DNA from: a virus | Virus record (IMG/VR): IMGVR_UViG_3300021964_000164 | Span: 1 to 41,082 of that record | Direction: 5' to 3' (one strand) | DNA: 41,082 bases | Shown here: positions 7,502-30,876 of the stretch, one piece after another | Layout: each line of letters opens with the position of its first letter | Numbering within the stretch: position 1 is the first letter of the stretch | Position numbers and translations under genes: made by a program | The notes under the pieces: model-generated | Database searches by the model: none | What the model saw: only the letters and a program-made list of their open reading frames with translations | Told to the model about the DNA's origin: nothing

Positions 7502-9928
7502 ATGGCTAGAACATATGGAGAAATAATTACTGATTATGGAAATAAAGCATTAGATGTTGCAGGTAATGTTACAGATTGGTTTAGTGATGTAGGTAGCAGA
7601 ATAGAAACTCCAGAAGTAGGGATTTGGAATACAGAGCCCGGTAATTATTTTACAAAAGAAAACTGGGGATTGGGTGACAGTAGTCTTATGACAATGGCAC
7701 CAGCAGGTGTTTATGAGTCAGGTTATTTTGATAATCCCTACGATTCAGTATATGGAAGTGTCGGAGATGTTCAAGGTTTTGGCGATGAATTAGATGGTGT
7801 AAGTAGTTTGCCTGTTATAACTATTAAAAAAGGCCCAACACCTTCAGGAATTGATACAGCAGATGATAGATTTAGAAGATATGCAGCAGAAAACCTAACA
7901 AGAAATACAGGAAACGCTTCTAACATTAATAGAAACCCAGCTACTACTATTAGCCCAAGTGGTAGAAGTGGTGGAGGTACTGCGGTAGCTAGTGCAGTTC
8001 CATCAGCACCTGTATTAAGAACTCGTACATTTCCGTTTACCTCTCGCACACCTTCAGGCAGTGTATATGCACCGGATTTGTCTGCATACAATGACTCGTC
8101 TTTATTTAACTACGCTGGCCCGGGTGGTTTAGCTGAGTATACTTATGGACAAGGATTACGCACAGATGGTGCAGACTACAGTATATTTGGTTCACCGGCT
8201 AACATAGCTAATCCATATTTTGCAGGACAATTTAAAGAGCCTCAAGGACCTGCGGATGCTGCAATAAATATGCCAGCAGTTGAATTACCTGAGGGTGTAC
8301 AGCCAGTAACTCCTACAGAAGTAAGTGCAGATGTTAGTATGCCTGCATTTAATGGTATTACACCTAGACCACCTAACTCTGCTGGAGATTTAACATATCA
8401 ACAAACAATAGATGAAATGGGAATCTTTGGACCTAACAACCCACCTCCTAGCACACTATTTCCTAGTCCGGGACAAGCTACAGCTAATGAGCAAAATACT
8501 GTAGCTGGTAATATTGCTGGTACTCCTGATAACAGCATGATGGCTAATCAAGCAGCAGCAGATGCAGCTATGGGTAATAGAATGGGATATCCAGATAATC
8601 TTTTTGCCGGTGCTTCTGCTATGGATGATACTGCTGATATAGAAAGAGGTATACTTACTTCACAGCGTGGTACAACTATGGATGATACTGCTGATATAGA
8701 AGCAGGAATGTCTCGTGTGCCAACAGACATGCAAAGATATTTGGATGATTTTGAAGCTAGAGGTATAAGAGATAGAACAGCTGAGATAATGGACTATGCT
8801 GCAAACAATAACAGAACAGTTGGTGGTGTTACTATATTTGATGAAGGAGACCCAAGACAAATAATTCAAGATGCTATATTAAATCCTGAGACTAGGAGAG
8901 AATATAAACCTGTATATGGTGGCATAGATGGCATACCAGTAGAGCTTGGCCCAGAAAGAAGTTTTTTTAAGGCTGATGAAATAGACATACCAACTCCACC
9001 ATTTAGACCTGAGGGTGTAGAAGGTGAAGATTTTTATCAAGATGTAACAGGTAACTTTTTTAGCATGGAAGATGATTTAGGTACACAACCACTAGGCCCT
9101 AATACTAGAGGAAGTAAAGGTAGCATAGATATTCCTAGTGGTCCTAATGTTAGAGGAACTAGAGGTAACATAGATATTCCTAGTGGTCCTAATGTTAGAG
9201 GAACTAGAGGTGATACAATACCAGCTGACATACCAGCTTTTTTAGATTATGACATAACTAGAGATAATGCAAACTACGAAGCTGCTGTTAATGCAAGAGA
9301 TAATCAATTAAGAAATCAGCTAGATAGTAGACCTGCATATGAAAGAGATAGAATGGAATATTTAGATAACGCATATAGTGCTATTGATGTTAAATATGCA
9401 GGAAGTAAAACAAATGCTAGTCAGCAAGCTGAACTTGTTGAAGTGTTAAATGCTAATTTAGATTCATTTGGCAACGCTGCTGGCAGAGAGAATGCTGCTT
9501 TAGCAAGAGAACAACAAGATATGAGACAAGCTAACGCTACTCCTTTTGTACCTTCGTATGCTAGAGAAATAGAAGGCACTGATATGGGAGAAAGTTTATT
9601 TCAAGGTGTAGATACATCTCCTACTAATACGGTTTATCCCGGAGAAAACAGTATACCTTTTAACCCTAGTAATCCAATAGACCAGCTTGTACTACAAAAA
9701 ACAGCACAAGAAGCACAGATAGCAAGAGCTAAATATGATAATGTACCTGCTAGAGCAGAAACAGGTGGTACTCCAATATCTATATTTAATGTTCCTGCAA
9801 GAGAACCAGTTAGCATGAATCAAATTGTACCTATGGTAGCTAGAACACAAAATAACATGACTGTTCCAGTCATGAGAGACTCGGCATTAGATAGAAGATA
9901 TGGTGGGCCAATGAGGTTTGGAAGATAA
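7502..9928 (+). CDS. Large low-complexity internal virion protein (808 aa)
   Basis: AAGGAGTAAC precedes the ATG. The protein is largely polar and likely extended: long P, S, T, N and G-rich regions (residues about 110-330) and a mainly helical C-terminal third (ENAALAREQQDMRQANATPF and around it). It contains two internal repeats: a 15-residue tandem unit near residues 531-570 and a duplicated MDDTADIE segment near residues 374-400. It has no recognisable enzyme motif. Its place in the four-gene run before the metallopeptidase-like gene suggests a structural or DNA-ejection protein. The repetitive regions may be evolving rapidly. Confidence 0.65.
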   Translation: MARTYGEIITDYGNKALDVAGNVTDWFSDVGSRIETPEVGIWNTEPGNYFTKENWGLGDSSLMTMAPAGVYESGYFDNPYDSVYGSVGDVQGFGDELDGVSSLPVITIKKGPTPSGIDTADDRFRRYAAENLTRNTGNASNINRNPATTISPSGRSGGGTAVASAVPSAPVLRTRTFPFTSRTPSGSVYAPDLSAYNDSSLFNYAGPGGLAEYTYGQGLRTDGADYSIFGSPANIANPYFAGQFKEPQGPADAAINMPAVELPEGVQPVTPTEVSADVSMPAFNGITPRPPNSAGDLTYQQTIDEMGIFGPNNPPPSTLFPSPGQATANEQNTVAGNIAGTPDNSMMANQAAADAAMGNRMGYPDNLFAGASAMDDTADIERGILTSQRGTTMDDTADIEAGMSRVPTDMQRYLDDFEARGIRDRTAEIMDYAANNNRTVGGVTIFDEGDPRQIIQDAILNPETRREYKPVYGGIDGIPVELGPERSFFKADEIDIPTPPFRPEGVEGEDFYQDVTGNFFSMEDDLGTQPLGPNTRGSKGSIDIPSGPNVRGTRGNIDIPSGPNVRGTRGDTIPADIPAFLDYDITRDNANYEAAVNARDNQLRNQLDSRPAYERDRMEYLDNAYSAIDVKYAGSKTNASQQAELVEVLNANLDSFGNAAGRENAALAREQQDMRQANATPFVPSYAREIEGTDMGESLFQGVDTSPTNTVYPGENSIPFNPSNPIDQLVLQKTAQEAQIARAKYDNVPARAETGGTPISIFNVPAREPVSMNQIVPMVARTQNNMTVPVMRDSALDRRYGGPMRFGR
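8621..8701 (+). repeat. Direct repeat of 24 bp (MDDTADIE)
   Basis: The 24-base segment encoding MDDTADIE occurs at 8621-8644 and again at 8678-8701, 57 bases (19 codons) apart and in the same frame. The spacing preserves the reading frame, so it expands the protein rather than breaking it. Confidence 0.85.
9092..9211 (+). repeat. 45-bp in-frame tandem repeat, about 2.7 copies
   Basis: A 45-base unit encodes the 15-residue pattern SGPNVRGTRGNIDIP. Copy one (9092-9136) is degenerate (GPNTRGSKGSIDIP). Copy two (9137-9181) and the partial copy three (9182-9211) are identical over 30 bases. The near-identity of the last two copies points to recent duplication. The unit is rich in R, G and P and may form a flexible linker. 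Confidence 0.9.
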
Positions 9929-9947
9929 TGAATAAAGGAGAAAGATA

Positions 9948-11150
9948 ATGGGTTATTGTACATACAACGGACAAAAAATACCCGGTACTAAAGAGTTTTG
10001 TAATCCTAGTGTAAAAGCTGGAGTTAAATGGGTAGAAGAAGATACAGAGGTTGAAACAACTGGAGGATTTTTAGACGCAGTCTCTAGTTTATGGGATGAA
10101 GACAAACCTGAAAAGTTTACAGAATATGTAGAAAGAAGGTTTGAAGAAGACCCTTATAAACTAGCTTTTGATGCAGCTATGTTAGCAGTGCCCGGTGGTC
10201 TTGCTCTTAAAGGAATAACTGGTGCAGGTAAAATGGCAAACATATTTAAAAAGACTTTTAGAAAACCTACTGATGCTGTTCCGGGAACACCAGCCTCTTC
10301 TACTTTTTCAGGTACAGGTACTTTTACTAAACCTACAGGTGTGCCTATAAATCCTAAAACTGGTCTTCCTATGCCTGCTCAAACTAAAGTACCATCTTAT
10401 CCTATTAATGCACCAAATGCAGGAAAAGTTATTACTACTCCAAGACAAGGAACTTTTGCTAGACCTCTTGCAAATCCTATAAATAGAACAGCAGCTGTAC
10501 CGGGTATACCAGCAGGCACAGCATTTTCTCCGGGTAGACTAGCTCTTACAGGAACTGCTCTTGGAGCTGGTGCTTATGGTGTAGATAGGAATTTATATCC
10601 TATGACTGAACAAGCAAAAGCTATAGCTCAAGAAAATGCTAATGCTTCTATGATGCCTGCAATAGAACAGCTTGATGCAATAAAAGCACAAGACGATGCA
10701 ATAAAAGCAGCTGAAGAATTAAAAATTAAGAAACAAAATGAAATAGACAATATGAGTTTCTTTGATAAATTTAAATTAGGAATGAAAGACCCTACTACTG
10801 CTGCTTTGTTTGGTGCTGGATTAAGAGACATAGGTGGCAATAAACCGGGAGGAAATCAATTAGGCACAATGCAAATGGGATTAGCTAAAGCAGCAGCTTC
10901 TGCTAGTGGTCCAAGTGCATCATTGTTTAATGCAACTAAACTATCAGAATCTGCTTTAATGGATAGGTTTACTGATAGCAAGTCGTTTATAAGTTTCTTT
11001 GGAGATAGCGAAGAAAAAAGAAAAAAGAAAGCAACTTACATGGTTGGAGTGTATAGAAGTTTACAAGCACAATTACTTGCTGCTGGTTTGCCGGCAGATG
11101 ATAAAACAGTAATGGCAATGCTTGAAGAAGAATACGGTAAAAAAGCATAG
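9948..11150 (+). CDS. Probable internal virion / ejection protein (400 aa)
   Basis: The gene is preceded by AAAGGAGAAAG. The N-terminus reads MGYCTYNGQKIPGTKEFCNP, with two cysteines 11 residues from each other's neighbourhood. A hydrophobic stretch (LAFDAAMLAVPGGLALKGIT, about residues 72-91) follows, then a P/T/G-rich linker, and a helical C-terminal half with the charged run IKAQDDAIKAAEELKIKKQN. I do not recognise a family. Size, mixed membrane/helical character and position between two larger proteins fit the set of proteins that podoviruses eject with their DNA. Confidence 0.6.
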   Translation: MGYCTYNGQKIPGTKEFCNPSVKAGVKWVEEDTEVETTGGFLDAVSSLWDEDKPEKFTEYVERRFEEDPYKLAFDAAMLAVPGGLALKGITGAGKMANIFKKTFRKPTDAVPGTPASSTFSGTGTFTKPTGVPINPKTGLPMPAQTKVPSYPINAPNAGKVITTPRQGTFARPLANPINRTAAVPGIPAGTAFSPGRLALTGTALGAGAYGVDRNLYPMTEQAKAIAQENANASMMPAIEQLDAIKAQDDAIKAAEELKIKKQNEIDNMSFFDKFKLGMKDPTTAALFGAGLRDIGGNKPGGNQLGTMQMGLAKAAASASGPSASLFNATKLSESALMDRFTDSKSFISFFGDSEEKRKKKATYMVGVYRSLQAQLLAAGLPADDKTVMAMLEEEYGKKA

Positions 11151-17362: not shown

Positions 17363-19327
17363 TCACTCTACGTCTCTTTCTTCTTCAACCAAGTCAACAA
17401 GTTCACACACACTACCAGTACACGCTAAAGTCTTAGTGCCTACTGTCATATCTGTTAACTCGTACTCGCTAATCAAATCCCAGTCTACAGACTTAGGCAT
17501 TGTCTTAGCCAGTTCATTGTACTGTTTCTTAGTGCAGTCCTCATAAGGTGCTTGTTGGTAGGAGTGGTCAGAGTGTGGTAAGAAACTAACACCACTGACT
17601 TCATCAAAGTGCTTGTATACCCATGCACCTACTTCCATCCACTCATGTTCTCTTACACTAACAGTAACGCTAGGCTTATGCTCACAGTAATATCTTTGAT
17701 AGGTGAGCCATAGTTCTAGCTGTTCGATAGCAGTCCTGTCGTTCCTAAGTATAGCACCTTCGGGTGCTTTCATTGGGAAGGTAAAGACTTTAACGCTATT
17801 GGGTTTCATTACATCAGCTTCACAAGGTATGCCTTGGTCCTCCATAAGTTGAGCAATAGGGTCTTTAGCATCTGCTCTTACTCTACGGAAATAGTAGTCA
17901 TTGTGCCTAGTGTGTATACCACTTGCACTATCTACTAATTGACTGACTGTGCCACTAGGTTTAATCGCTGTTGTTGCAGTAGCTTGGCTGATACCTAGCA
18001 GTTCTGACCAATGCTCATTAACCTTAATTGTTTCTTTTCTAAGGTCACTGAGAAAGTCAGGTAAACTTCTTTTACCATAGTAGCCTCTGTCTTCACTGCT
18101 ACCATTCATAAAACTATTGTCCATTATACCAGTTAATGATACTCCAAGCAAGGCTTCTTCTTCTGTATTTTTAACCCATTTCGGTCTAAGTCTCTTAATG
18201 TTAGTAAGACTTGCTTGAAATGTGCCCAGTATAGTGGCTAATCTTACCTTACGGAGCATATCTTTCTGTGTGTCTGTTGCTCGTATCACTACCTCTGTTA
18301 AGTTGCAAAATTGACCATCTCTTAGGATGATTTCACTGCATGGATTACAACCAAAGTCATGCTCTGTATCTCTCCTACCTATGGATGCTACTTGTTTGAT
18401 AGCCGCTTCTCTGTTGAAGATGCCACGCTCACCTGACTTAGACTCATAAAGAGAAGCCCATTCCTTCATGAATATACCCATGTCAGGCTTCTCTGTATAG
18501 CATACACTGTTGTTACTGAGTGCCATTTCCGGTGTGTCTGACCACCACTGACCTGACTTAGCGTTACGCATACGCTCATCAGTTAAGTTTGATAGAGATA
18601 TAAGTGCTGACCTACGCACACCACCTACGACTACCACCTCTGCTATCTTACACATCATTCTATGACACTCATAACTTGTTAGCTTTCTTCCTACTGACTC
18701 TTTGAATAGGTTAGTAGCGAAGTTAAATAAATCAAGCAGTGGTTCAGGACCACTTGCTCTGCCTCCAAAGGTAGCTAACCTAGAACCTTTGGGTCTAATC
18801 TTAGAGAAATCCCACTTAGGCATTTCACCATTGTACAAGTAAGTAATAAGTTTTCTAAACGCAGACTGCCATCCTTCCTTGCTGTCTTGTACCACTACTG
18901 TGTCCTCTACATCTATCATCTCCTCAGGTACTTCGGGTAGCTTAGAAATAAATTGTCTTTCTACACTAAATCCTACACCAGTACCATGCATGAGTACATA
19001 TAAACATTCATCAAATGCTTTTGGATGGTCAACACTAAGGTAAGCACAGTTGTATCCAGCTATGTTGTTATCTTTAAGTGCCTTGCCTGAGGTCATCAAT
19101 GCTCTCATGCTTGGCATAACTTCTAGGTTTAATACTGCATCTTCTAGTATCTTCCTAGTCTTGGGTAATAACTCATGGTTACAGTTCTCTTTTAAATGTT
19201 CTTCCATGAAGTCAAAGTATCTAGCAACTGTTTCTTGCCATGTCTCTCTCCTGTTTTTATCAGGTAGCCACCTAGCGTATCTGCTCAGTGCTATAAAATT
19301 TTGGTAGTCGTTGGGTAATGTGTTCAT
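17363..19327 (-). CDS. nrdJ: Class II (B12-dependent) ribonucleoside-triphosphate reductase
   Basis: The 654-residue protein aligns by motif to the monomeric Lactobacillus-type RTPR. C94 (GYNCAYLSVD) and C341 (QFCNLTEVV) are the redox pair. NPCSEI gives thiyl-radical C330 and E332. The C-terminal CTGSVC (C636/C641) is the CX4C pair that reloads electrons. The spacing C330-C341 equals C408-C419 of RTPR. VLMHGTGVGFSVER and KPSGTVSQLVDSASGIH are further class II signatures. It makes dNTPs from NTPs using adenosylcobalamin without oxygen, fuelling phage DNA synthesis. It is slightly shorter than the usual 700-740 residues. The start overlaps the next upstream gene by 4 bases. Confidence 0.93.
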   Translation of the reverse strand: MNTLPNDYQNFIALSRYARWLPDKNRRETWQETVARYFDFMEEHLKENCNHELLPKTRKILEDAVLNLEVMPSMRALMTSGKALKDNNIAGYNCAYLSVDHPKAFDECLYVLMHGTGVGFSVERQFISKLPEVPEEMIDVEDTVVVQDSKEGWQSAFRKLITYLYNGEMPKWDFSKIRPKGSRLATFGGRASGPEPLLDLFNFATNLFKESVGRKLTSYECHRMMCKIAEVVVVGGVRRSALISLSNLTDERMRNAKSGQWWSDTPEMALSNNSVCYTEKPDMGIFMKEWASLYESKSGERGIFNREAAIKQVASIGRRDTEHDFGCNPCSEIILRDGQFCNLTEVVIRATDTQKDMLRKVRLATILGTFQASLTNIKRLRPKWVKNTEEEALLGVSLTGIMDNSFMNGSSEDRGYYGKRSLPDFLSDLRKETIKVNEHWSELLGISQATATTAIKPSGTVSQLVDSASGIHTRHNDYYFRRVRADAKDPIAQLMEDQGIPCEADVMKPNSVKVFTFPMKAPEGAILRNDRTAIEQLELWLTYQRYYCEHKPSVTVSVREHEWMEVGAWVYKHFDEVSGVSFLPHSDHSYQQAPYEDCTKKQYNELAKTMPKSVDWDLISEYELTDMTVGTKTLACTGSVCELVDLVEEERDVE

Positions 19328-28108: not shown

Positions 28109-28276
28109 CTAGTCCTCATCAATACAATGTATCAGTATTTGAGATTCGGGAACATGGTGTTCATCTGAGGCTTGTTTGATGAGTATGAGTTCAGCCTCTT
28201 TCTCTGTAAATGCCTCGATATATTCCCAATGATTGGTAATGATGTCAAAGCCTATGTGGAAAGTTTTCTTCTCCAT
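28109..28276 (-). CDS. First gene of early leftward operon (55 aa)
   Basis: ATG 28276 (MEKKTFHIGFDIITNHWEYI) is preferred to the in-frame ATG 28315, because AAGGAGATACC lies just before it and the longer form would start inside a hairpin. The product is a small acidic protein with alternating strand/helix character (EYIEAFTEKEAELILIKQAS). As first gene after the early promoter it is a candidate host-takeover factor. No family recognised. Confidence 0.65.
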   Translation of the reverse strand: MEKKTFHIGFDIITNHWEYIEAFTEKEAELILIKQASDEHHVPESQILIHCIDED

Positions 28277-28291
28277 TTGGTATCTCCTTGC

Positions 28292-28350
28292 TAGTTTAAA
28301 CGCAATAAGGCACACGCATAAAACATGTATGCCTTACAACTTTTAAACTA
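28292..28350 (-). promoter_or_regulatory. Leader hairpin of early operon, two-part stem
   Basis: An outer stem TAGTTTAAA/TTTAAACTA (28292-28300 with 28342-28350, 9 perfect pairs) encloses an internal loop. The inner leftward stem TAAGGCATAC/GTGTGCCTTA has 10 pairs, one G-U. The outer 3' arm runs straight into GCAAGGAGATAC, so folding would sit against the ribosome site. Confidence 0.78.
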
Positions 28351-28445: not shown

Positions 28446-28473
28446 ATAATACACACCTTGCTATAAAAGTCAA
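28446..28473 (-). promoter_or_regulatory. Early leftward sigma70-type promoter
   Basis: TTGACT (28468-28473), a 16-base spacer and TATTAT (28446-28451) on the leftward strand. The start would be near 28439, ahead of boxA, the leader hairpin and the first early gene. Confidence 0.7.
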
Positions 28474-28519
28474 GCACTTTCTTCAATTAATTTAAAACTA
28501 TTGCATATAAATATATTAA

Positions 28520-28663
28520 TGAGAACATCTATCATATGCTACTGAGAACCATTCGCAATTAAGAATTATTCCTAGATGAGAACCATTCGCATTAAGCGTA
28601 GATGGTAATTATTCGCATTTGCGAGTCAGTCGCAAGTAAGAATGCAAATGATAGTCATTCTCA
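28520..28663. promoter_or_regulatory. Array of five Fur-box-like repeats
   Basis: Five 15-base sites follow the 7-1-7 Fur pattern TGATAAT-n-ATTATCA. They start at 28520 (TGAGAACATCTATCA), 28543 and 28577 (both TGAGAACCATTCGCA), 28603 (TGGTAATTATTCGCA) and 28649 (TGATAGTCATTCTCA, 13 of 15 counting the C centre of the classical box). They lie between the leftward early and rightward terminase promoters. They could instead be operators for a phage-coded regulator. Confidence 0.55.
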
Positions 28664-28670
28664 TTTAGAA

Positions 28671-28800
28671 AAACCCCGAAAGTCGACCCCCAGACCACCC
28701 AAATCGTGCGTGTGCCCACACACAGAATCTAACCTCCATGTAAAATTATTATTTTTTGAGTAATTTCCCCGCACAGCTACCCCGAATTCGGGCACAATGA
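28671..28800. other. C-rich segment with CCCGAATTCGGG palindrome
   Basis: After the A/T-rich repeat array the + strand turns C-rich (CCCC and CCCACC runs around 28672-28700, CCCCGC near 28768). It carries a perfect 12-bp palindrome, CCCGAATTCGGG, at 28781-28792. No gene is present. It could mark a replication, packaging or recombination boundary; nothing decides this. Confidence 0.4.
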
Positions 28801-28830
28801 ATAAAATACTTACACAAACTAAGAAATTTA

Positions 28831-28839
28831 TGGTATAAT
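28831..28839 (+). promoter_or_regulatory. Extended -10 promoter toward terminase genes (distal)
   Basis: TTTATGGTATAATATT contains TGGTATAAT (TGnTATAAT). TTACAC at 28810 is a weak -35 with an 18-base spacer. The 16-base core is identical to the one 146 bases downstream. Confidence 0.7.
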
Positions 28840-28976
28840 ATTGCTTATATTTTAAGTTAACTAAGCTACTATACCTAGAACCAAACATATAAAGTTACAT
28901 TGAACCCATCATCATTGTTGATATAAATTAAATGAATCACTTTGTATATATTCTAGGAATAGCATAAGCAATTTTA

Positions 28977-28993: not shown

Positions 28994-29581
28994 ATGGCAA
29001 ATAAAGGAACAATTTCTGCTGACTCCGAAAAGGAAATCAAAGAAATAGAAAAAGAATTAGAAGAAGAACTACGCTATGCAGTAGCATCATCTAAAGGTAT
29101 AGTACCAGCAGATGCTGTAATTAAGATTGAGCGTAAGAAAGGCCGACCTACTGGTGGACTTAGTGCAGAATCTAAGAAAGCTGGAGGTAAAAAATCTAGA
29201 ATTAAACGTGGACAAATATATAAACCTACAGATGACGATTATTCTAAGGTAGAAGAAATGGTTTGTATAGGTTTAGACCAGCATACTATAGCCAAGATTA
29301 TGGGTATTTCTAATGCCACCCTAAATAAATATTATGCACACAATTTATCTGTAGGAAAAGAAAAGCGTACCGCAAGGGTTGCCGGAGTTGCCTATGAAAT
29401 GGCAGTTTCAGGTGAATCTCCTAGCATGACTACGTTTTGGTTAAAGACTCAGGCCGGATGGTCTCCGAAACACCACGTTGTTGTAGAAGATAGACAGTTT
29501 GACATACAATGGGCCAGCGATGAAGCTGACATTGCGGATGCAAATCAAATATTAAGGAACAAGGATAGCAAAGTACACTAG
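28994..29581 (+). CDS. terS: Terminase small subunit
   Basis: The 195-residue protein has a charged N-terminal helix (KEIKEIEKELEEELRYAV) and a basic linker. A helix-turn-helix follows, EEMVCIGLDQHTIAKIMGIS...TLNKYYAHNL (about residues 88-117), typical of DNA-recognising small terminase subunits. GESPSMTTFWLKTQAGW is the conserved segment after it. It lies immediately upstream of the large subunit gene and downstream of an extended -10 with almost no leader. It selects phage DNA for packaging. Confidence 0.88.
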   Translation: MANKGTISADSEKEIKEIEKELEEELRYAVASSKGIVPADAVIKIERKKGRPTGGLSAESKKAGGKKSRIKRGQIYKPTDDDYSKVEEMVCIGLDQHTIAKIMGISNATLNKYYAHNLSVGKEKRTARVAGVAYEMAVSGESPSMTTFWLKTQAGWSPKHHVVVEDRQFDIQWASDEADIADANQILRNKDSKVH

Positions 29582-29586
29582 TATTT

Positions 29587-30876
29587 ATGCAAGAGGAGAG
29601 GAAATCTATTGTAATTCCCTATACACCTAGGGATTTACAGAAACACTTACATACTAATCTAGATAGATTTAATGTAGTTGTATGTCACAGAAGGTTTGGT
29701 AAGACTGTATTTGCAATTAATCAGTTAATTAAAAGTTCTGTAGAAGATATACAAGCTGGTAAAAGAGCACCACGCTATGCATACATAGCACCACTGTTTA
29801 AGCAGGCAAAGACAGTAGCATGGGATGAACTTAAAAGACTATGTGCTGTATTTCCTGAAGTAAAGTTTAACGAGGCAGAACTAAGAGCCGACTTTATGGG
29901 AGCGAGGATACAGCTATACGGTGCAGACAATTACGACACTCTCAGGGGAATTTATTTAGATGGGGTGGTGCTTGATGAGTACGCTCAGATGAACCCTAAG
30001 ATGTTCTCTGAGGTTATAAGGCCGGCACTCTCAGATAGGAAAGGTTATGCTATATTTATTGGTACACCTAAAGGTAAGAACGAATTTTATGATTTATACC
30101 ACTCTGCCCCAGAGAAGAAGGGATGGGCTAGATTCTTATACAAGGCGAGTGAAACAGGAATACTAGATAATGAAGAACTGGAACTTGCGAAACAAGATAT
30201 GGCAGAGACTGAATTTGAACAAGAATACGAGTGTTCTTGGTCTGCTGCACTTAGAGGTGCGTATTATGCTAAAGAGATTGAAACTGCTTATGAAGAAGAC
30301 AGAGTGGGGAAAGTCCCTTATGACCCGTCTAAACAAGTAGTAACAAGCTGGGACTTAGGGGTAAGTGATGCAACCTCAATTTGGTTCTGCCAGTTTGTAG
30401 GTAAAGCAGTACATATTATAGATTATTTTGAAGGTTCAAACGAAGGATTGCCATACTATATAGATGTACTTAAAGCAAAAGGCTACAGGTATGGTGCACA
30501 CATAGCACCGCACGATATTGTAGTACGAGAATTTTCTACTGGTAAGTCAAGACGAGACCTAGCATTTGACCTAGGCATTGACTTTCAAGTAGCACCAAAG
30601 TTAAAGGTTATGGATGGTATAGACACTACCAGAACTTACTTAAATAAATGCTGGTTTGATGAAGAAAAAACCAAGAAAGGTTTAGAAGCATTACTACAAT
30701 ATAGAAGTAGTTATGATGACAAGAAAAAGATTTGGTCACAAAGACCAGTCCACGATTGGACTTCACACGCTAGTGATGCGTTTCGCTACTTATGTGTAAC
30801 AGATGTAGTGTTTACAGGTAATGATAGTGTCTGGGGAAGGGAACTCCCTAAGACAGATTTAAGTTGGATAGTATAA
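29587..30876 (+). CDS. terL: Terminase large subunit
   Basis: The packaging ATPase motif is VCHRRFGKT (Walker A, K39), with VVLDEYA as Walker B plus catalytic Glu (D130, E131) and FIGTPKGKNEFYDLY as the coupling motif. The C-terminal RNase H-like nuclease shows SWDLGVSDATS (D256, D261) and HASDAFRYL (D397). All the residues expected for ATP-driven translocation and DNA cleavage are there; 429 residues is compact for the family. It works with terS and the portal encoded just downstream. The ATG at 29587 lacks a strong ribosome site. Confidence 0.95.
   Translation: MQEERKSIVIPYTPRDLQKHLHTNLDRFNVVVCHRRFGKTVFAINQLIKSSVEDIQAGKRAPRYAYIAPLFKQAKTVAWDELKRLCAVFPEVKFNEAELRADFMGARIQLYGADNYDTLRGIYLDGVVLDEYAQMNPKMFSEVIRPALSDRKGYAIFIGTPKGKNEFYDLYHSAPEKKGWARFLYKASETGILDNEELELAKQDMAETEFEQEYECSWSAALRGAYYAKEIETAYEEDRVGKVPYDPSKQVVTSWDLGVSDATSIWFCQFVGKAVHIIDYFEGSNEGLPYYIDVLKAKGYRYGAHIAPHDIVVREFSTGKSRRDLAFDLGIDFQVAPKLKVMDGIDTTRTYLNKCWFDEEKTKKGLEALLQYRSSYDDKKKIWSQRPVHDWTSHASDAFRYLCVTDVVFTGNDSVWGRELPKTDLSWIV

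Follow-up and report, generated by a model that had tools for sequence, protein, structure and literature searches.

The DNA analysed here, termed the window, is a stretch of 41,082 nucleotides from a marine phage (virus record IMGVR_UViG_3300021964_000164, positions 1-41,082). Within it, six to seven sites resembling the box recognized by Fur, the iron-sensing ferric uptake regulator of bacteria, are found at 28518-28665. They occupy DNA without a gene, flanked by the predicted early promoter on one side and the predicted terminase promoter on the other. The features of this region are as follows, with bit scores taken from a Fur matrix trained on E. coli K-12 promoters.

28109..28315 (-): first early gene, with a likely start near 28275 after GGAGATACC; no family match
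28446..28473 (-): predicted early promoter, TTGACT-16-TATTAT, leftward into the early genes; a similar TTGACA/TAATAT occupies the same place in relatives
28518..28536 (no strand): Fur-box-like site 1, AATGAGAACATCTATCATA, with the 15-mer TGAGAACATCTATCA at 28520-28534; 9.9 bits
28541..28559 (no strand): Fur-box-like site 2, ACTGAGAACCATTCGCAAT, with the 15-mer TGAGAACCATTCGCA at 28543-28557, the same as in site 3; 11.0 bits
28575..28593 (no strand): Fur-box-like site 3, GATGAGAACCATTCGCATT, with the 15-mer TGAGAACCATTCGCA at 28577-28591; 12.4 bits
28601..28619 (no strand): Fur-box-like site 4, GATGGTAATTATTCGCATT, with the 15-mer TGGTAATTATTCGCA at 28603-28617; 13.0 bits
28620..28634 (no strand): weak degenerate site TGCGAGTCAGTCGCA, 17 bp past site 4; below 8 bits and retained for register only
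28641..28665 (no strand): overlapping double Fur box AATGCAAATGATAGTCATTCTCATT, with the 15-mers TGCAAATGATAGTCA at 28643-28657 and TGATAGTCATTCTCA at 28649-28663; 17.2 and 19.7 bits
28811..28839 (+): late/terminase promoter predicted from sequence, TACACA-17-TATAAT, with an extended -10
28994..29581 (+): terminase small subunit (PHROG 309, E=3.3e-10)
29587..30876 (+): terminase large subunit (PHROG 2, E=2.4e-37), used for collecting relatives

The original prediction had described five 15-base sites of the 7-1-7 pattern in a gap without a gene. All five are present where it had placed them, together with further ones that include the overlapping partner of the best site. Two of the sites do share an identical core, TGAGAACCATTCGCA, and one, TGATAGTCATTCTCA, does match the pattern at 13 of 15 positions (12 of the 14 fixed positions). 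The sole ORF of the gap, 28661-28888 (-), is an unsupported 75 aa, and the two predicted promoters bear out the placement of the array between them. The overlapping pair at 28643/28649, offset by 6 bp, has the 21-bp form that would accommodate two Fur dimers. Among the early genes, Pfam and PHROG scans found no iron-related gene. Elsewhere in the window, a ribonucleotide reductase at 17363-19327 (-) has weak matches to B12-dependent class II domains; the class II enzyme is the type that needs no iron cofactor.

The Fur matrix is a 19-bp palindromic model, seeded with the published consensus and trained only on 12 E. coli K-12 iron promoters. With this small, E. coli-based matrix, which in every bit score presumes a host whose Fur consensus is like that of E. 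coli, seven positions of the array reach at least 8 bits (19.7, 17.2, 13.0, 12.4, 11.0, 9.9 and 8.8), where 0.2 are expected from shuffles. None of 1000 dinucleotide shuffles equalled the array in its site count or in its maximum. The best site, at 19.7 bits, exceeds all 12 training promoters (12.2-19.1 bits), and across the whole window the top two matrix matches and four of the top five fall within the array. Scoring against shuffled controls had been proposed as a check on the prediction, and with this one matrix the array stands far above shuffled DNA. Its match to the 19-bp and 7-1-7 consensus is thus beyond chance, as in a Fur operator.

The same sequence is found at iron-uptake genes in bacteria. 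Among 84,980 prokaryote species genomes, the window's exact 21-mer core, TGCAAATGATAGTCATTCTCA, has two occurrences, each of them upstream of a TonB-dependent receptor gene after which comes exbB, although the two genomes look related and the count is nearer one independent case. The tandem Fur-box pattern has a single match in 185 bacterial genomes of the same class (genome G053), directly before a receptor gene. Gene names at these bacterial matches were taken from translated ORFs and not from a family search. The two genomes bearing TGCAAATGATAGTCATTCTCA (L082 and L083) were considered as hosts and are not likely, having few other boxes. By terminase identity, the nearest isolated phages are Pelagibacter phages (about 53%) and Methylophilales phage Venkman (49%), and a DNA-level search of isolated phages with the region around the array gave no match. 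Binding by a phage-coded regulator had been raised as an alternative; no Fur-family protein was found to be encoded by the window phage, and a phage-coded Fur was rejected as the binder for this reason.

The spacing of neighbouring boxes was analysed with one array per group, in 63 groups without a shared protein of at least 60% identity in the flanks; a 40% cut-off leaves only 28 groups, and the independence of the groups is partial. Spacings cluster at 17, 23, 29, 35 and 41 bp, that is, at 6n-1 (Rayleigh z=22.6, p~1e-10), as in the hexamer-based register of Fur operators (PMC11353095). A 10.5-bp signal is absent over the same 63 groups, and DNA-helix phasing of the boxes was rejected on this ground. 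The window's own spacings (23, 34, 26, 17, 23 and 6) are only partly in the 6-bp register, which is seen here in the pair at 28643/28649.

Arrays of this type recur in other phages. The tandem Fur pattern is found in at least 119 stretches of the viral collection, some contigs of which may contain host DNA, compared to 1 in a complement control of the same composition. Among the matches listed, the array is outside genes in 96 of 115 loci by a simple ORF rule, and the flanking genes, where both were called, are tandem in 25 cases, divergent in 24 and convergent in 10. An origin of the viral arrays as host fragments was also considered and rejected, as no homologue of five E. coli TonB receptors was found near them.

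Isolated phages with dense intergenic Fur arrays include the T5-like phages T5, SPC35, DT57C, phiR2-01 and My1, and also phi92 and PaulScherrer (Bas60), CR9 and the jumbo phage Muenster. Every isolated-phage array tested is far above its own shuffles, and the maxima in T5, SPC35, phi92, CR9, Muenster, My1, phiR2-01 and DT57C reach 20.0-23.1 bits, compared to the lower range of the K-12 training promoters. In T5, SPC35, phi92 and My1, the neighbouring genes converge on the array, so that no promoter is expected there. The T5 array (L375, 9552-9715; best site 23.1 bits) is located inside the annotated injection stop signal at 9140-10149. This recurrence in unrelated phages suggests that many phages may capture host Fur.

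Several individual phages have further features. Close to the T5 array are a match to the DnaA box and the repeated word TGTCGGATTTGCACA. Near the genome end of Klebsiella phage Muenster (L255, 2117-3403), Fur boxes are interspersed with repeats resembling TTCAGTACTGAA. Pseudoalteromonas phage J2-1 (L376, 2464-4188) has seven Fur boxes in 6 kb, one of them directly before an ATG, and these look like promoter-type Fur control in a phage. Finally, 146-kb records labelled as Campylobacter phages (e.g., MG065639 and MG065689) contain Fur arrays of the phi92 type at about 93% identity; these records could be coliphages under a wrong label.

Eighty viral loci share the window's terminase. In the closest relatives the array is retained nearly unchanged across its 150 bp, which answers the proposed check in related phages in the affirmative. 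Box 1 shows one C/T difference, and the other differences are all inside boxes: two C->T changes and one G->A, each of which brings a half-site closer to consensus, and one T->G in box 4, which slightly lowers the score. Three relatives (L231, L235 and L241) have a better TGAGAATCATTCGCA at site 3. Strong Fur sites are present in the gap of about 10 of the 62 relatives with enough upstream sequence, in several distinct layouts, and in 20 long relatives all Fur 15-mer matches are in this one gap, so that the sites are concentrated in one gene-free region, as in clusters of the CtrA kind; for L016 this takes its record as circular, which puts the match some 1.1 kb upstream of the terminase. In L008, L016 and L065, a strong Fur box is found at or near the early-gene leader, a repressor-like position.

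The promoter flank rightward from 28713 is about 82-91% kept in relatives that have no Fur array. Upstream of terS, the slot of relatives that have no Fur boxes is taken up by repeat arrays of other kinds. These are of the TATGTATGAATTCATATATATG type in L011, L022, L054, L066 and L080, of the CCATCCATCCCA type in L025, L026, L061-L064 and L068, and TCCGAGGACTTCGGA in L015 and L031, while L053 has a tandem 27-mer. A 9-mer is present at least three times in 23 of 52 slots, where shuffles give at most 0.07. The window's slot adjoins an AT-rich stretch that is conserved in relatives.

Taken together, the K-12 matrix, the TonB-receptor context, the 6-bp register and the recurrence in unrelated coliphages strongly support the predicted identity of the sites as Fur boxes, the last because the Fur consensus of E. 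coli is known. We give about an even chance to the proposal that the array consists of real host-Fur operators in 6-bp register and that its main effect is titration of Fur during infection. Iron-loaded Fur would bind the array sites, and several Fur dimers would load side by side in the 6-bp register of the protein. As phage genomes accumulate, array sites would come to outnumber the few Fur boxes of the host, and Fur would be drawn away. Its withdrawal would relieve the repression of iron uptake and of other genes under Fur control as infection proceeds, and the early promoter close by may be affected in passing.

Titration is favoured because, across phages and gene orientations alike, the shared feature is a group of strong sites in DNA without genes, and because Fur is known to be titrated by multicopy boxes in E. 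coli, as in the Fur titration assay (PMC6071977). Several strong sites away from promoters are seen in the window, T5, SPC35, phi92 and My1, and not in L008, L016 and L065. The original prediction had offered titration as inference only; since many arrays are not at promoters, the idea is now better supported than that. In small gammaproteobacterial genomes the number of such boxes is low, at about 3-8 each, and may be doubled by one phage genome; a modest phage copy number would swamp the host sites if such a bacterium is the host. On the other side, the single genome copy present at entry would titrate little. Most relatives are without Fur boxes in the gap and some have other repeats there, which may mean that the slot serves a local role, and the leader boxes of L008, L016 and L065 are in a position that a pure decoy would not need.

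These leader boxes speak instead for iron-sensing control of phage transcription, in which Fur-Fe upstream of the early promoter would repress or modulate the early genes, so that infection is delayed or timed by the iron state of the host. That phage expression is tied to host iron was part of the original interpretation, and this part is still live as the main rival, which we consider rather unlikely. The array shares its gap with both the early and the late promoter, in J2-1 one Fur box immediately precedes a start codon and six more lie within 6 kb, and, by analogy, phage promoters are regulated by clusters of CtrA sites situated in gaps and terminal repeats (PMC9437464). However, a Fur-regulated promoter has a box over its -35/-10 elements or start site, and neither promoter of the window, both being predictions, is overlapped by any of its boxes. 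Upstream distances to the inferred early start site are about 79-97 bp for the nearest box and about 200 bp for the strongest, and the arrays of T5, SPC35, phi92 and My1 between convergent genes also speak against such control. The array could instead be a structural or DNA-handling site (entry stop, replication origin or packaging), with Fur as an architectural protein alone or with other host proteins. Arguments for this are the T5 array, located with a DnaA-box match in the injection stop signal, and the other repeat arrays that relatives have beside the conserved AT-rich stretch. We regard this as improbable, since no such role is known for the window phage, the repeat family of the slot varies while the adjoining genes stay, and the boxes lack the single helical phasing that a DNA-bending complex should show; it is chiefly in T5 that a role in entry or as an origin is possible.

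The binder itself could be a different protein, either a repressor from the phage or a host regulator of the Fur family such as Zur, Mur or PerR, given that Fur-family boxes are alike and that the slot of relatives contains non-Fur arrays. This is very doubtful in view of the lack of a Fur-family gene in the phage, the scores of the motif with a Fur-specific matrix, the same word before TonB-receptor genes in bacteria, and the coliphage arrays, which attain the matrix's top scores. Chance A/T-rich repeats without function are hardly credible: boxes 1-4 are individually imperfect, but the shuffles, the recurrence in unrelated phages and the single match of the complement control rule out this origin. 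Returning to titration, a broader and more tentative reading, to which we give somewhat less than an even chance, is that natural Fur sponges would be a widespread and convergent phage trait, with promoter-free arrays in unrelated phages such as T5 and phi92 sequestering the iron regulator of the infected host, and that the slot arrays of the marine relatives would serve other host regulators. If true, host iron control would be a direct target of many phages through DNA alone, with no protein. It would also tie phage infection to TonB-dependent receptors, which are the entry route for many phages.

Titration by the array would resemble the Fur titration assay and synthetic DNA sponges, in which multicopy sites strip a repressor from chromosomal promoters (PMC6071977, PMC7686491, PMC7826281); sponges on 10-12-copy plasmids are effective for other regulators (PMC7686491). 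Those systems are laboratory plasmids, whereas the array is in a phage, and no natural phage example of a regulator-titrating sponge was found in the open-access literature. Likewise, no paper on Fur-site arrays in phages was found in that literature; subscription journals were outside the search, and an earlier description is possible. Extended Fur operators built of GATAAT hexamers or overlapping 7-1-7 motifs (PMC11353095) share with the array the same sequence, the 6-bp register and the overlapping double box, but they are at host promoters over the -35/-10 elements, while the phage array is longer and off promoters. For the T5 injection stop signal, PMC13250531 describes palindromes, DnaA boxes and both direct-type and inverted repeats, and it calls the second-step transfer that follows the signal poorly understood. 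Its palindromes and repeats include a Fur-box array of the window's type, which would make Fur a first named candidate binder for part of this signal, although the window phage has no known two-step entry. Alphaproteobacterial phages are known to have clusters of CtrA-binding sites in their gaps and terminal repeats (Mascolo et al. 2022, PMC9437464), and iron control of the phage would parallel the "lytic deferment" model for CtrA. The regulator there is CtrA (cell cycle), compared to the candidate Fur (iron) here; CtrA sites favour promoters and have been shown to regulate, whereas the Fur arrays are often off promoters and are putative operators. Clusters of host-regulator sites in phage gaps are already known for CtrA; what is new is Fur as the regulator and the placement away from promoters.
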